DNA of 27,193 nt from the IMG/VR virus record IMGVR_UViG_3300024520_000413, positions 1 through 27,193 of that record; one strand, given 5' to 3'. The translations under genes and the position numbers were made by a program. Every line of letters starts with the position of its first letter. The first letter of the stretch is position 1. Source of the stretch: a virus. Under the pieces are notes generated by a model. It was given only the letters and a program-made list of their open reading frames with translations, had not been told where the DNA came from and searched no databases. This document shows positions 3,765 to 25,088 of this stretch, piece after piece.

Positions 3765-4466
3765 CTACCAAATCCCACCATCGGTCGTAATATTAAACTT
3801 CATTGGTTCGCCATCGCGAACAGGAAATACCTCATCTATACTGGCAAGCTGACTCACTGTTTGCGAGTTTAAGAAATTAGTAGATGCCATACCACGAAGC
3901 TTGTTAATCTCTTTCGCTTTAATTACTTCCGCATCGGATAAATTCATTTGATCATCATCTACTTTAGCTTCATTGATTGCTAGTTTAGGCAACGACGGAT
4001 GCCATTCTGTTGGAAATTGTGGCTCGTCGTTATCGAGAGTCATATCTTCTGGCCATCCATAAAACCACCAAGTAATTTCAATTGCGTCGCCATTAAAGGT
4101 GGGGTATATAGTTAGTTGCCTACGACCACTTTCTCCCCAAATATATCCCATTCGAGGTACACCCTCTAAATCGACCTGCCAGTTACCTTTTTCAAAATCT
4201 CGCGGACTGCCTACGATTTCTATCTCGTTAAAGTGCGGTGTTCCGTAATGAAGCAGTTCGTTAGATACAAATCCATGCGGTACGGCGTAGGATTGCTGCC
4301 CTTGAACAGATGCGAATATATATTTTCGCTTGGCGGTAACTTTAAGTTCTTGGGCAATATCATCTTTGAGCTGATTGAGTAAAGCCGTTACTCTATCATC
4401 ATTCCAGTACGCCCTATCATCTATTCGACGTTGCACCCTTTCGATCATATCTCGAAGTACCATCAT
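3765..4466 (-). CDS. Head-tail adaptor (connector) protein, 233 aa
   Basis: This is likely the ring protein that joins portal to nozzle, as T7 gp11 or P22 gp4-type adaptors do. The N-terminal helices (RDMIERVQRRIDD, then a Leu-rich helix to about residue 40) lead into a beta-rich middle with a Y-x-VP turn (QSYAVPHG) and the GDAIEITWWFYGWPEDMT strand. The C-terminal helices (residues about 165-205) contain the PKLAINEAK segment common in these adaptors. I place the start at ATG 4466. AGGAG lies five bases upstream of it, and the longer frame begins with a GTG that lacks a good site. The preceding 64-aa frame ends one base before this ATG. Position just before the nozzle gene supports the call. 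Confidence 0.7.
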   Translation of the reverse strand: MMVLRDMIERVQRRIDDRAYWNDDRVTALLNQLKDDIAQELKVTAKRKYIFASVQGQQSYAVPHGFVSNELLHYGTPHFNEIEIVGSPRDFEKGNWQVDLEGVPRMGYIWGESGRRQLTIYPTFNGDAIEITWWFYGWPEDMTLDNDEPQFPTEWHPSLPKLAINEAKVDDDQMNLSDAEVIKAKEINKLRGMASTNFLNSQTVSQLASIDEVFPVRDGEPMKFNITTDGGIW

Positions 4467-4467
4467 A

Positions 4468-4662
4468 TTAACTCCTTGAAAAACTTGTTGCACGCTTTCG
4501 CACTCTCTTGAATACCGATGCTTCTTTTTTTGTTTGTACTACCGACTCTACAAACGAAAGAGTATGTACTGCTACTGGCATATAAGCAAGCGATATATTT
4601 GATAAAAACCGTAAGGCTGTGCTTGTGAAATAGCCCAACATTATTGTAGTGATTTTTGTCAT
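4468..4662 (-). CDS. Small protein with hydrophobic N-half and basic tail, 64 aa
   Basis: The frame starts at ATG 4662 with an ATGA overlap to the sulfotransferase stop and ends one base before the adaptor ATG, so it tiles exactly between two real genes. The first 40 residues are moderately hydrophobic (TTIMLGYFTSTALRFL and later residues). The last 20 are strongly basic (KKEASVFKRVRKRATSF). No Shine-Dalgarno site precedes it, so it would depend on coupling to the sulfotransferase. The adaptor's AGGAG lies inside its last codons. No family is recognised. It could be a small membrane-associated protein or a remnant created when the upstream AT-rich islet was inserted. Confidence 0.5.
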   Translation of the reverse strand: MTKITTIMLGYFTSTALRFLSNISLAYMPVAVHTLSFVESVVQTKKEASVFKRVRKRATSFSRS

Positions 4663-5357
4663 TTTAACACCAAATTCTTAGAATGACCATTACGTTGATA
4701 ACCATAATGGAGCATGGTATCTCCAATCAAAGAATAAATATAGTTATTATACCAATCTGGCAATCGCTTCTCTTGTTGCCATTTATTACAATGTATATTA
4801 TAATAACTCCAATCTGGATTTTTTATTTCTTTACCTCTTCCTCCGTCCATATCGTATTCCAACACAACGCTTTCCACAGAACGCATAATTGGAATTTCAA
4901 GATGAACAACTACTTTATTTAATGTTTCCAATGGATACAAACATAAGCGTTCGTATTGAATAATAATAATATCTTTTTCCAACAAACCGCATGTAAAATA
5001 ACTTTCCCATTTTTTACATTGATCTGATATATGTTGTCGATTGCTCCAAACTTCATTCGTTAATAATTGATTTTTAATATTCATTTTATTAAAAGATGGT
5101 ATGCAATCGCGCGGATCTCTTACAATTAAAATATATTTAACATTATCCAATAATTTAATCTGATCATCTAGATGAGTAATAATATACGCACCTGGATGCA
5201 ATGGAGTATTTTGCATAACCAAACTAAATGTAGGAATTTGTCCAATTTGAGTAACCATTGTTTGCATCCAAACTGTACCAGATTTTTCATGTGAAAATTG
5301 AACAAAATGATCGTGTTGTTTAGCGTAACTATAATAAAAATCATACAAATTAAACAT
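4659..5357 (-). CDS. PAPS-dependent sulfotransferase, 232 aa
   Basis: The enzyme is expected to transfer sulfate from PAPS to a hydroxyl or amine of an acceptor, probably a sugar. The two PAPS-binding signatures of the cytosolic-type (Sulfotransfer_1) superfamily are visible. The 5'-phosphosulfate loop is EKSGTVWMQ (residues about 24-32), and the 3'-phosphate site is ILIVRDPRDCIPSF (residues about 76-89), with the usual Arg and Ser. A family-typical W-x-x-G-x-x-E-like C-terminal loop is less clear; a GGRGKE motif stands near residue 172. The start at ATG 5357 has AAGG seven bases upstream and overlaps the preceding stop by eight bases. A TTG two codons earlier is less likely. It is the last enzyme of the AT-rich islet. 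Acceptor unknown. Confidence 0.85.
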   Translation of the reverse strand: MFNLYDFYYSYAKQHDHFVQFSHEKSGTVWMQTMVTQIGQIPTFSLVMQNTPLHPGAYIITHLDDQIKLLDNVKYILIVRDPRDCIPSFNKMNIKNQLLTNEVWSNRQHISDQCKKWESYFTCGLLEKDIIIIQYERLCLYPLETLNKVVVHLEIPIMRSVESVVLEYDMDGGRGKEIKNPDWSYYNIHCNKWQQEKRLPDWYNNYIYSLIGDTMLHYGYQRNGHSKNLVLK

Positions 5358-6354
5358 CGCCAAACCTTACGTTCAACCCTAATCTACTAGCTACACAACT
5401 CGCTAATAATGGAATCATTATTTCGTGCTGCCCAACAATAAAATACCCTTTACCACCTAATTCCGATGGCCTTCTTACAATATTTTCCATAGGGCGATAA
5501 TGTTTAATCATATCAAAATTTACTGTAGTAAAATTTTTCACATCAAATCCTAAATTTTTAACTACATTCAAGGACTTTATAAATATTTCTGGCATAATTA
5601 CAGCAGACCCTACATTTAATACAGCACCACCGTCGCATAGTTTCGATATCTGCTCAATAAAAATATTCAAATCAATCGCACTAGCTTTTCCGAAATTTTC
5701 TCCACTAAAAGATGGATGATAATGAATTATATCAGCACCAATAGCAGAATGTACGGTTATTGGTATGTGTCGATATGAGCACGAAAGTATACTTTTATCT
5801 TTGTATAACATATTGGAGTTATTTAATCGCGCTGCTAAAGCTTCGCCTATACTTTGATCGCCATTACATATTGCATGATTTATCAGCTCGCCAATTTCTG
5901 TCCACATCCCAAACTTACCATCTCTTAAGTTTTTACCTACATCTTCCGATGTTTCTCCTATCATTGCAATTTCACAATCATGAATACTTGCACCACCATT
6001 CATGGCAATACTTGTGATTATACCATCTCTTATCATTGAAATAATAATAGGCGAAAGGCCACATTTTATAACATGCCCACCTATCATCATAATCACTGGT
6101 TTGTGGTGATAATAAGCATCTGCTATAGCATTAACAATATCTCGAAAATCATTGCCGGCTAAAATTTCTGGAAAATTATTTATAATATCTTGATCAATTT
6201 CATTAGATACAAAATCGGAAACACCAACTTTATTTTTTCGCTCTTTAATAGGATACGTTATGGTGTCGTTCAAATTTATTTTATTTTGCGAGTTCAATAT
6301 ATAATCCACCGAAAGTATTGTATTTGAATATATCGATTTTATCAAAAAATTCAT
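5350..6354 (-). CDS. Deoxyhypusine-synthase-like protein of unknown role, 334 aa or less
   Basis: The protein resembles an uncharacterised bacterial family related to deoxyhypusine synthase (NAD-binding Rossmann-like fold), which I recall from gene clusters for heptose or LPS synthesis. Key stretches are YPIKERK (34-40), GGHVIKCGLSPI (92-103), AMNGGASIHDCEIAMIGETS (117-136), AIGADIIHYHP (204-214), LNVGSAVIMPE (246-256), TTVNFDMIKHYRP (276-288) and VGQHEIMIPLL (307-317). The lysine-bearing GGKGYF segment is at 300-305. In this family the conserved part begins near YPIKERK. The true start may therefore be later than ATG 6354, for example TTG 6297 with GGTGG upstream, which would shrink the 74-base overlap with the TylF-like gene. 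The reaction is unknown. Its neighbours suggest a task in sugar metabolism rather than eIF5A modification. Confidence 0.75.
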   Translation of the reverse strand: MNFLIKSIYSNTILSVDYILNSQNKINLNDTITYPIKERKNKVGVSDFVSNEIDQDIINNFPEILAGNDFRDIVNAIADAYYHHKPVIMMIGGHVIKCGLSPIIISMIRDGIITSIAMNGGASIHDCEIAMIGETSEDVGKNLRDGKFGMWTEIGELINHAICNGDQSIGEALAARLNNSNMLYKDKSILSCSYRHIPITVHSAIGADIIHYHPSFSGENFGKASAIDLNIFIEQISKLCDGGAVLNVGSAVIMPEIFIKSLNVVKNLGFDVKNFTTVNFDMIKHYRPMENIVRRPSELGGKGYFIVGQHEIMIPLLASCVASRLGLNVRFGDV

Positions 6355-6907
6355 CTACTGCCAAAGTAGCTCCAGGAGTAAGGCGAAAACCGTAATCATC
6401 GATTAGTATAAAACCACCAGGAATCATTCTTGGATAAAAAAAGTTCAAACAATCTTGTACAGATTGATATTGATCGCAATCAATATGAACCAAACAAAAT
6501 TTTTCATAAGCAACTCGATGAAGAGTATCTTTAAACCACCCTTTATGCAAAATTATACGATTTCCAAATTTGCCAAGTAATTCATTTGGCATATCACAAG
6601 CTCCCCATCCGCGTGGCATTTCTTGTTTATCCAATCCTATCATATCCTCTAGTGATGGCTCCGGTAATCCTTCCCACGAATCAAAAGCGTAGATCGCTTT
6701 ATCCAAAATTACACTCGCGTACAGATATACAATACCACCACGCCAGACCCCTGCTTCTGCTATCGCACCTTCCATAAATTTTGCTCTTATCGCATATTCG
6801 TAATGAAGTTTAAGTTTTTCACGATCTACCATAGTACGATCAACAATATTATCCATTATACCAGGAAATGTAGGCGATATTTGATATCTATTATTACTAA
6901 ACTTCAT
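6281..6907 (-). CDS. TylF/MycF-family O-methyltransferase, 208 aa
   Basis: This class I SAM-dependent enzyme belongs to the macrocin O-methyltransferase (TylF/MycF) family, which methylates sugar hydroxyls in a metal-dependent way. Visible motifs are EAGVWRGG for SAM binding (51-58), FDSWEGLPEP after the second strand (75-84), the probable metal and catalytic site HIDCDQYQSVQDCL (141-154), and LIDDYGFRLTPG (168-179). The length of about 208 residues is a little shorter than typical antibiotic-cluster members but normal for phage and surface-sugar versions. ATG 6907 overlaps the upstream methyltransferase stop as ATGA. With a GT9 glycosyltransferase upstream, a phage-transferred sugar is the most likely substrate, which is inference. 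Confidence 0.88.
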   Translation of the reverse strand: MKFSNNRYQISPTFPGIMDNIVDRTMVDREKLKLHYEYAIRAKFMEGAIAEAGVWRGGIVYLYASVILDKAIYAFDSWEGLPEPSLEDMIGLDKQEMPRGWGACDMPNELLGKFGNRIILHKGWFKDTLHRVAYEKFCLVHIDCDQYQSVQDCLNFFYPRMIPGGFILIDDYGFRLTPGATLAVDEFFDKIDIFKYNTFGGLYIELAK

Positions 6908-7662
6908 TGCGAATCCTTCATATCTTTCTTAATTAAATCCAACAACGCAGGAATACCAGTACTCGTATCTTTATAAGCTACAACTCTTAATGATTTACCA
7001 TTAAAAATCAAAATAGATTTAAACCCACTATTATATAAAAAGTTAGCAATACTTGGCTCATCCAAGCAACCAAAATGATAATCTCCCGGCGAGCAACCAG
7101 AAAAAAGTTTGAAATTTACCCATCTTTGCATATCAAATAATTCACTATTAGATAAATTTGGATGCTCTTGGGCGGGAAAGCCAACCTTCTCGCCTCGCCT
7201 TTGCTTATCTAAGTTACCCAAATACATTAAAGAAATATATTCTAAATTAGGTGTATCAATAATTATAATACCGTTATCGCACAACAATGAAGATAACCAC
7301 TCAAATAAAGATGGGTAATAAAGCCATTCAATATGTTCTAGTGTATGCTTCATGCGAACAACTTTGTATTTACCATAACGAATATCATCTATATCTGGAT
7401 ATAACGCTTTACGCTCTCTGTAATAATCCGAAGGTGCAAATATAGAACGAATGTCAACTACCAAATCTGGAGATATACTACTATCACAATCTAGTGTCGT
7501 ATATACACCATCACAATCTTGGCCAGCACCAATATCCAATTTTAATGATTTATCAACATCATCCGATGCGGCTATGATGGCATTATCGATTTCATTATTA
7601 CCGACTAGAGTGAAGTGTTGGGAATATTCTGTTTGTTTTTTTAATTTTCTAAATAATTTCAT
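6904..7662 (-). CDS. SAM-dependent class I methyltransferase, 252 aa
   Basis: The SAM-binding glycine loop LDIGAGQ lies at residues 42-48, the acidic strand-2 end TLDCD at 56-60, and an HTLEHI motif typical of methyltransferase type 11/12 proteins at 106-111. After these comes the hydrophobic strand GIIIIDTPNLEY (131-142). The C-terminal part has a substrate-shaping EHPNLSN segment (166-172) and a final FLYNSGF helix and turn. Such enzymes often act with glycosyltransferases on cell-surface or virion sugars. It lies seven bases downstream of the GT9 gene and overlaps the TylF-like gene by four bases. No Shine-Dalgarno site is visible before ATG 7662, unlike most virion genes here. The substrate is unknown. 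Confidence 0.85.
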   Translation of the reverse strand: MKLFRKLKKQTEYSQHFTLVGNNEIDNAIIAASDDVDKSLKLDIGAGQDCDGVYTTLDCDSSISPDLVVDIRSIFAPSDYYRERKALYPDIDDIRYGKYKVVRMKHTLEHIEWLYYPSLFEWLSSLLCDNGIIIIDTPNLEYISLMYLGNLDKQRRGEKVGFPAQEHPNLSNSELFDMQRWVNFKLFSGCSPGDYHFGCLDEPSIANFLYNSGFKSILIFNGKSLRVVAYKDTSTGIPALLDLIKKDMKDSQ

Positions 7663-7668
7663 AATATT

Positions 7669-8601
7669 TTATCGTAATATATGATCCACTTTTTCAAGAA
7701 TATCTTTCGGTTTATATGACATACAAAACTTAAATTTACAAGGCTCGTACCAGCACCACTGTTTAGTACATTTTGTAAATCTCGGCATCCAATTAGCATT
7801 GTAATATTTCAACCTAACGATAGGATTTGTAGGGCCAAACAGTCCTAAAGTCGGTACTTGCAAAGCTCCGGCGACATGAGGAAATGCCGAATCTGGCCCA
7901 ATAAGTAATAAAGATGTTGCAATTACTCCATAAATAAATGCAAGGGGAGTATTATACAACCCCAAAACACCTTTAACATCATACGATTGCACCGCATCTA
8001 CAGTAACTACTTCAAAATCTAATTTTTTTCCAAGCTTCACTAGTCCATAAAGCAGCCATCTATTAAAGCGATAATCACGATCACAATCATGACTTCGTAA
8101 CTGCAATACAATATAACGATTAGCTAATCCCATTTCGCGATATACATTCAATTCATTATCATGCAATACAAAATTATAATTATTTATATCAAAATCAACT
8201 CCACATGATTCTGAAAATATTTCTTGTCTAGATTTATAAATATGCGGCGCACACGCTGACTCGTATTCGGAAGCAGGACATGGATGATGTAAAAAATACA
8301 TCTCGCAATCCAAATTATTTAATCTTTTTAAATCTTGTATATCTACTTGTTCGCCTAATTCTTCCTCTGTGTAAGAAATTATATGATCGACACTATCGTT
8401 ATGCTCAAAAATTGTTCTAATATAATCGATACACAATACAACAATTAAAGAGGCTGGATTTTTAAGTCTTAGCGCGGTAATCGCAGGAAGAATCATAATC
8501 GCATCGCCTATGCCACCCACCGGACGATATACAATAATAACTTTATCAGATCGAATATACTGTATAATAATATTAAATATTTCGTTTTTACTCAATACCA
8601 T
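7669..8601 (-). CDS. Glycosyltransferase family 9 (heptosyltransferase-like), 310 aa
   Basis: GT9 enzymes such as WaaC/WaaF transfer heptose from ADP-heptose to LPS core. Here the N-terminal loop VYRPVGGIGDAIMILPA (24-40) and the donor-binding LLIGPDSAFPHVAGALQVPT (232-251) with LGLFGPTNP (252-260) are clear. The N- and C-lobes match a GT-B fold of usual length. Near the C-terminus four cysteines stand at exact five-residue steps (278, 283, 288, 293), which could bind a metal or form disulfides. ATG 8601 directly follows the TGA of the upstream structural gene; no good ribosome-binding site is visible, so coupling is likely. It is the first gene of the AT-rich islet. The donor could be another sugar nucleotide, since GT9 is broader than heptose. 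Confidence 0.88.
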   Translation of the reverse strand: MVLSKNEIFNIIIQYIRSDKVIIVYRPVGGIGDAIMILPAITALRLKNPASLIVVLCIDYIRTIFEHNDSVDHIISYTEEELGEQVDIQDLKRLNNLDCEMYFLHHPCPASEYESACAPHIYKSRQEIFSESCGVDFDINNYNFVLHDNELNVYREMGLANRYIVLQLRSHDCDRDYRFNRWLLYGLVKLGKKLDFEVVTVDAVQSYDVKGVLGLYNTPLAFIYGVIATSLLLIGPDSAFPHVAGALQVPTLGLFGPTNPIVRLKYYNANWMPRFTKCTKQWCWYEPCKFKFCMSYKPKDILEKVDHILR

Positions 8602-24533: not shown

Positions 24534-25088
24534 TTACAAAGTATGATATTCTCGACGCGTTCTCATTCTCGCCATACCTTTTGTTCGTCGTTTCCAAATA
24601 GTCGTCCTGGGTAATCCCTCGCGTTCGCCGATTTCCCTGTCGCTCAAGTTGAGCCAAAACTTTGATAGTATCACCTTCCGTTGCTTGTCTGTCAACAGCG
24701 ATATAAATCTTTTTGCCTCTGCGCGCTCCATCGCAATGTCTGACGGATCATCATCGTAAGCCGGAACCAATTGTAAAGTGTGCTTTATTTTCTCAAAATC
24801 AACAAACTCGATACTATTTTTATAAGAATAATTGAACGCCCTTGATCTAATAAAATCTATCAATTTGTATTTTACTATCATATGAGCCCAAGCTCTATTG
24901 ATTGTGCCATCCGAATTGATTGCTTTTGCAATAACTTTTGGATCGAAATAATACATGTAATACTGCTGTTCTAAATCTTTTACTTTATCTTTGTAAGTAG
25001 AACCTTTAGGGGCGTATCGTCTGGCTAGATATCTAGCGTCCTTCTTAATCGCCTCGTGCTCGCCTTCGTAATTAACCTTCAGTTCCAA
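24534..25088 (-). CDS. Sigma70-like RNA polymerase factor, 184 aa, TTG start
   Basis: Two sigma70-type parts can be seen. A region-2-like block is at about 62-100 (NRAWAHMIVKYKLIDFIRSR followed by an aromatic stretch). A linker with acidic DDDPSDIAMERAEAKR follows. A region-4 helix-turn-helix is at 131-178 (LLTDKQRKVILSKFWLNLSD, REIGEREGLPRTTIWKRR). The length and order fit ECF-type factors. Its start is TTG 25088 with GAGGG six bases upstream; no ATG is near. The gene precedes the terminase by two genes, where phages often carry a small terminase. The helix-turn-helix could therefore serve DNA recognition in packaging, but the region-2-like block favours a transcription role. Target promoters are not visible. 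Confidence 0.75.
   Translation of the reverse strand: MELKVNYEGEHEAIKKDARYLARRYAPKGSTYKDKVKDLEQQYYMYYFDPKVIAKAINSDGTINRAWAHMIVKYKLIDFIRSRAFNYSYKNSIEFVDFEKIKHTLQLVPAYDDDPSDIAMERAEAKRFISLLTDKQRKVILSKFWLNLSDREIGEREGLPRTTIWKRRTKGMARMRTRREYHTL

Follow-up and report, generated by a model that had tools for sequence, protein, structure and literature searches.

The virus record IMGVR_UViG_3300024520_000413 is studied here as one stretch of 27,193 bases, which we call the window; all coordinates are window positions unless another contig is named. Its virion operon includes an islet of five sugar-modification genes, which encode a glycosyltransferase of family GT9, two methyltransferases, a protein of the GSU2086 family, and a sulfotransferase. 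We suggest that the islet is a position-conserved, serotype-like locus, expressed late, whose products add heptose to a surface protein of the virion and cap this sugar with methyl groups and sulfate. For this reading we consider the chances to be about even. A wider proposal, on which we are somewhat more hesitant, is that phages of the whole group decorate the surface of their tail or capsid with a heptose-type sugar whose caps vary by phage, that some members encode part of the heptose supply, and that the GSU2086-family protein acts on heptose or its nucleotide form.

The islet genes follow one another in the order GT9, methyltransferase MT1, TylF-family methyltransferase, GSU2086-family protein, and sulfotransferase, and then comes a small open reading frame (ORF) of 64 residues (Table 1). 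The five enzyme ORFs are intact and closely spaced, with neighbours overlapping or standing apart by anything from a few bases to about 70. All clearly identified protein genes of the window, namely those for terminase, portal, capsid, adaptor, and tail-related proteins, are carried by the minus strand. An earlier note on this DNA described five side-by-side enzyme genes in the late direction, forming a module for sugar transfer, methylation, and sulfation between a surface-domain gene and the adaptor. This description holds. Pfam and NCBIfam assignments together with motifs confirm the five genes, their families agree with such a module, the upstream gene product appears to have a tail-collar-fibre-like fold, and the downstream gene matches an adaptor family. 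A second contig of the same phage is 99.98% identical to the window.

The same locus was found in three related phages, designated L004, L104, and L102, which together with the window form the group studied here; the records of the relatives may be incomplete. All four phages have the same virion operon, and the major capsid proteins (MCPs) of L004, L104, and L102 are 88%, 68%, and 40% identical to that of the window, respectively. In each phage the GT9 gene directly follows the homologue of the gene for the 147-residue surface-domain protein (76%, 43%, and 33% identity in the same order), and the locus stops before the adaptor. GT9 is present in all four phages (33-49% identity) and MT1 in three of them, with orthologues directly after GT9 in L104 (44%) and L102 (32%). 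The other enzymes differ. L004 has, in place of MT1, a different methyltransferase with an unassigned C-terminal part. L104 encodes two additional methyltransferases, MT2, which is joined to a second GT9-like part, and MT3. The additional genes of L102 are an MT2, a second GT9-like gene, a TylF gene, an acetyltransferase (GNAT, PF00583), a pyruvyltransferase (PF04230), and a further likely transferase. Searches of the three relatives' records for the sulfotransferase and GSU2086 families found neither, and these two genes may be later additions. Since the site is the same in four phages and the accessory enzymes differ, we regard the locus as a standing feature of the group with a changing cargo.

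The 64-residue ORF falls outside the islet as delimited in the earlier note. It is 84% identical to its L004 counterpart over the C-terminal 31 residues, with a divergent N-terminus, and 33% identical to that of L104 over 63 residues. Judging from these alignments, the variable stretch ends on its right side inside this ORF.

Table 1. Islet genes, their flanks, and the heptose genes of L104
Feature	Position	Strand	Family match or remark
Tail-collar-fibre-like surface-domain protein, 147 aa	8602..9045	-	Directly upstream of GT9 in every phage; candidate acceptor
GT9 (heptosyltransferase-type) glycosyltransferase, 310 aa	7669..8601	-	PF01075 E 5e-8; TIGR02193 E 3e-7
S-adenosylmethionine (SAM) methyltransferase MT1, 252 aa	6904..7662	-	PF13489 (Methyltransf_23) E 6e-6; orthologues in L104, L102
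TylF-family O-methyltransferase, 208 aa	6281..6907	-	PF05711 E 4e-27
GSU2086-family protein, deoxyhypusine-synthase fold, 334 aa	5350..6354	-	NF052581 364.7 bits
Sulfotransferase of 3'-phosphoadenosine-5'-phosphosulfate (PAPS) type, 234 aa, TTG start	4659..5363	-	PF00685 E 3e-9; PF13469 E 9e-9
Small ORF, 64 aa, hydrophobic N-terminus and basic C-terminus	4468..4662	-	Between sulfotransferase and adaptor
SU10-type adaptor, right-hand flank	3765..4493	-	PF24175 E 1e-13; 76, 45, 29% identity to relatives
Heptose-7-phosphate kinase and GmhB phosphatase, overlapping	L104:2256-3867		Directly before terminase

The islet has a GC content of 0.329 compared with 0.430 in the flanking genes, and a GC content at third codon positions of 0.237 compared with 0.345 (Mann-Whitney p=0.0003 over all genes). 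The mean energy of the duplex with the anti-Shine-Dalgarno sequence is -3.1 vs -6.1 kcal/mol (p=0.03), a weak difference because it comes from five genes only. Both differences go in the direction claimed earlier, i.e., the islet is AT-rich and its ribosome-binding sites are poorer. The further reading of the entire islet as a newly acquired cassette is not supported. Recent acquisition of the islet as a whole is rejected because of the GT9 core, which each of the three relatives, down to 40% MCP identity, carries at this site, and because of MT1, which two of them share. All four phage islets are somewhat AT-richer than their own flanks, to differing degrees, and thus AT-richness is a standing property of the locus and does not indicate a recent arrival. 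No Rfam match that would indicate structured RNA was found.

The glycosyltransferases of the window, L004, and L104 score above the cut-off of PF01075 and thus belong to GT9. The motif G-x-G-D with the catalytic aspartate (D33), the GPT motif, and three cysteines of the C-terminal tail are invariant in the four phages. The L004 protein is oddly diverged: it is 42% identical to its window counterpart, where flanking genes mostly show 75-88% and a decoration-like gene 53%. A quartet tree of the GT9 proteins was considered as proof of exchange between phages and rejected as such: the phage tree is not rejected by it, and exchange looks the same as fast evolution.

The enzymes that would modify the transferred sugar are assigned with different margins. 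MT1 matches PF13489 with 26.5 bits, slightly under the cut-off of 27. The TylF-family protein is a clear member of the TylF macrocin O-methyltransferases (95.6 bits for PF05711 with a cut-off of 23), is homologous to MycF and NovP, and is 34% identical to the TylF protein of L102. The sulfotransferase is a member of the PAPS sulfotransferases (37 bits for PF00685 with a cut-off of 22), and both PAPS-binding motifs, KSGTVW and RDPRDCIPSF, can be read directly in its sequence.

The GSU2086-family protein was initially called deoxyhypusine-synthase-like. This is correct for the fold and incorrect for the family. An AlphaFold model with a mean predicted local distance difference test (pLDDT) score of 90.8 is matched in Foldseek by deoxyhypusine synthases, a LOR/SDH protein, and AgrE/ArgZ; according to this model the protein shares its fold with enzymes some of which use NAD+. 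Deoxyhypusine synthase function is ruled out by sequence: the matches have E-values of 0.18 (PF01916) and 0.075, far below the cut-offs, and the lysine near the active-site position of deoxyhypusine synthase, which has its lysine in a GK context, is not conserved in the GSU2086 family. The full-length match to NF052581 greatly exceeds the cut-off of 250 bits, and every residue that is invariant across 29 homologues is kept in the window protein. A TTG codon near 6297 is a possible alternative start, with GGTGG upstream of it and homologues that begin there.

NCBIfam assigns no function to the GSU2086 family, which spans several bacterial phyla. We surveyed the neighbourhoods of GSU2086 genes in 80 genome loci (35 non-poribacterial and 45 poribacterial). 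The heptose genes hldE or gmhA are located within 4 kb of the GSU2086 gene in 28 of the 35 non-poribacterial loci, and in none of these 35 beyond that distance; the count for Poribacteria is 1 of 45. All these hldE and gmhA genes lie on the same strand as GSU2086. On a Solidesulfovibrio plasmid the GSU2086 gene is flanked by hldE-like and gmhA-like genes. In Geobacter it sits between hldE and gmhA, and mutants of all three genes share similar electrode-growth defects (PMC5585712). The family may consist of enzymes that act on heptose or its nucleotide form. In the phage the GSU2086 protein is encoded beside a heptosyltransferase-type GT9, and therefore heptose is indicated.

Several further GSU2086 loci deserve mention. 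In one poribacterial locus inspected, an O-antigen ligase gene adjoins the GSU2086 gene. Poribacteria were considered as the donor of the phage gene because of the best identity (50-54%), yet in the tree the phage copy branches outside Poribacteria and its placement is unsupported, and this assignment was dropped. On a 74-kb viral contig (IMGVR_UViG_3300010883_000017), a GSU2086 gene is found close to genes for a GDP-mannose-dehydratase-like protein and a bifunctional HldE, and a 201-kb viral contig (IMGVR_UViG_3300022696_000071) carries a GSU2086 gene with no heptose genes nearby. In a Woesearchaeota contig, genes for a heptose kinase-GmhA fusion, GSU2086, and a heptose kinase follow one another and form an archaeal heptose operon.

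Genes for heptose supply occur in L104, one for a heptose-7-phosphate kinase and one for the heptose-1,7-bisphosphate phosphatase GmhB. Both match their families below the equivalog cut-offs (TIGR02198 with E 1.6e-65 and NF006506 with E 2e-41, respectively). The nearest solved structure to the kinase is a D-beta-D-heptose 7-phosphate kinase, and those nearest to the phosphatase include GmhB. The catalytic motifs of the pair (GAGD, DRDG, and Cys) are intact. These two genes connect the group with heptose in a third, independent way, beside GT9 and GSU2086. Because of the GSU2086 neighbourhoods and the kinase and phosphatase of the relative, a nucleotide-heptose donor is indicated, and the idea of heptose raised from the window sequence has thus gained independent support.

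Three observations concern heptose genes in the relatives. Close to its C-terminus, the GmhB protein of L104 contains an internal repeat, about 21 residues long. On contig L111 (positions 6787-6855) a stretch of 23 residues aligns to the phage heptose kinase with 78% identity; it is placed about 3.5 kb away on the other strand of the same contig and may be a fragment or a duplication. A PHROG match of a relative's protein to phosphoheptose isomerase was discarded as unconfirmed: phmmer searches with three GmhA queries gave nothing, and no SIS domain was detected.

The likeliest acceptor appears to be a virion surface protein, with the fibre-like 147-residue product as the first candidate. Its AlphaFold2 model has a moderate pLDDT of 75.5, and the best PDB match is the tail of the Haloferax virus HFTV1 (9h4p_BD, E 9.5e-7). 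Many tail-collar fibre proteins among the viral models of BFVD also match it, and domains of this kind are also encoded elsewhere in the operon of the window. No flippase, polymerase, ligase, or membrane transferase was identified in the loci of the four phages. We favour a virion protein over host lipopolysaccharide (LPS) because of the adjacency to GT9, the apparent lack of machinery for membrane glycans, and the position within the virion operon.

The locus could then work as follows, with the order of the enzymatic steps being our own suggestion. Placement in the virion operon would cause the islet products to be made late. The host would provide ADP-heptose or an intermediate of its pathway, and L104 would also provide the heptose-7-phosphate kinase and GmhB. 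To judge by NAD-using enzymes of the same fold, the GSU2086-family protein would probably alter the heptose or its nucleotide form. GT9 would move the sugar onto the acceptor, where the two methyltransferases and the sulfotransferase would afterwards add O-methyl and sulfate caps. The predicted caps are sulfate and methyl in the window, acetyl, pyruvyl, and methyl in L102, and methyl only in L104 and L004. Swapping of cap enzymes between phages would change the sugar coat of the particle and thus alter its recognition.

Several points weigh against this proposal. The acceptor is a candidate chosen from the anatomy of the locus. Late expression is deduced from strand and position; in the search for an internal promoter or terminator that would separate the islet, candidate sites, promoter-like ones among them, occurred only at the number expected by chance. 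Heptose as the sugar of GT9 rests on context, since the match is to the general family and the window protein has 30, 18.5, and 28 bits for the equivalogs of LPS heptosyltransferases I, II, and III, whose cut-offs are 185, 135, and 170. The LPS core is the usual substrate of GT9, so the host envelope suits this family at least equally. Finally, the window GT9 does not belong to the bacterial autotransporter heptosyltransferases (BAHT). Its domain begins near residue 20, leaving no N-terminal beta-barrel, and its C-terminal cysteines have the spacing x4-x4-x4, unlike TibC, whose iron finger is formed by Cys339/342/358/370 (PMC4358343).

Thus the main rival, which we judge unlikely although it deserves serious attention, is that the phage modifies a host surface glycan (LPS core or capsule) late in infection with methylated, sulfated heptose. 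Such a modification would mask receptors, keep progeny off debris, and exclude competing phages. Besides the LPS heptosyltransferase family of GT9, it would account for GSU2086 genes within LPS and surface-polysaccharide operons. Bacterial surface glycans also commonly bear methyl, sulfate, acetyl, and pyruvyl caps. However, no membrane transferase, flippase, or ligase was identified in the four loci, the locus is tied to a fibre-like gene and the adaptor and not to a region of early or lysogeny genes, and masking would be of limited use at the end of a lytic cycle. Between the two targets named in the earlier note, virion proteins and LPS, the anatomy of the locus leans towards the virion, while the GT9 family favours LPS.

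It is improbable that the target is phage DNA, a small molecule, or a host signalling metabolite (e.g., withdrawal of ADP-heptose or a decoy). Small-molecule sugars are substrates of TylF enzymes, and DNA glycosylation by phage glycosyltransferases has been described in other phages (Pyle et al. 2024, as cited in PMC12619734). However, sulfation and methylation by a GT9 locus match no known pattern of DNA modification, and the position in the virion operon would be left unexplained. Moreover, a scan of 56 mainly early-region proteins of the three relatives revealed no base-hypermodification family, only ordinary N6/Dam-type DNA methyltransferases. Still less probable is recently acquired passenger cargo with no part in the phage cycle: the AT-richness, the weaker ribosome-binding sites, and the sulfotransferase and GSU2086 genes, which were not found in the three relatives, would fit it, but GT9 is held at one site in such distant phages, MT1 is kept in most of them, and the inspected active-site motifs and the invariant GSU2086 residues are intact.

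Virion glycosylation by heptosyl transfer, our preferred reading, has partial parallels. The known cases of glycosylated phage particles are mainly mycobacteriophages, whose virions are shielded from antibodies by the sugar. The window resembles mycobacteriophages (Che8 gp108-gp110; Corndog gp38) in combining phage glycosyltransferases with a TylF-type methyltransferase domain. Che8 gp108 is a glycosyltransferase/TylF fusion two genes from gp110, and the window TylF protein is 33% identical to its C-terminal part over 142 residues (E 8e-14). The mycobacteriophage glycosylation genes are near the genome end, whereas those of the window lie between virion genes. Glycosylation of capsid and tail-tube proteins by the phages' own glycosyltransferases has been demonstrated in mycobacteriophages (PMC12363180), whereas the system of the window is known here from genes.

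BAHT such as TibC and AAH are GT9-type enzymes that transfer ADP-heptose to protein rather than to LPS, which proves that protein heptosylation of this type is possible, although they differ from the window GT9 in the barrel and the iron finger. The LPS heptosyltransferases WaaC and WaaF share the GT9 family and the donor-binding C-terminal half with it; it differs from them in falling far under the WaaC, WaaF, and WaaQ equivalog cut-offs and in its virion-operon position. Unlike the hldE-GSU2086-gmhA operon of Geobacter, the phage GSU2086 gene has no hldE or gmhA beside it and neighbours the enzymes of the GT9 locus and a sulfotransferase. Like L104, cyanophages carry a heptose kinase (e.g., HldE of Synechococcus phage S-T4), but these are large cyanophages, and their heptose genes were not tied here to a virion operon with a GT9 locus. 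Virion glycosylation as such is already known; its version with heptose and sulfate in this phage group appears to be new. If true, a heptose/sulfate coat with exchangeable caps in an environmental phage group would suggest that phages use variable sugar coats on their virions more generally. The GSU2086 family would also gain a concrete hypothesis, action on heptose beside a defined transferase.

Outside the group, GT9, the sulfotransferase, and GSU2086 had no match in a collection of 50,697 phage records. MCP searches in cellular genomes of two phyla (285 and 297 genomes) revealed remote capsid relatives only, and no homologues of the islet enzymes were found near their capsid genes. Just upstream of the terminase gene the window encodes a sigma-70 region 4-like protein (24534-25088). 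In contigs L108, L109, and L111, which are parts of two relatives, the genes that run against the virion operon include those for an MCM-like P-loop helicase, a PriS-like primase domain, and Dam-like methyltransferases. Such a set of replication genes is unusual and may give a clue to the host.

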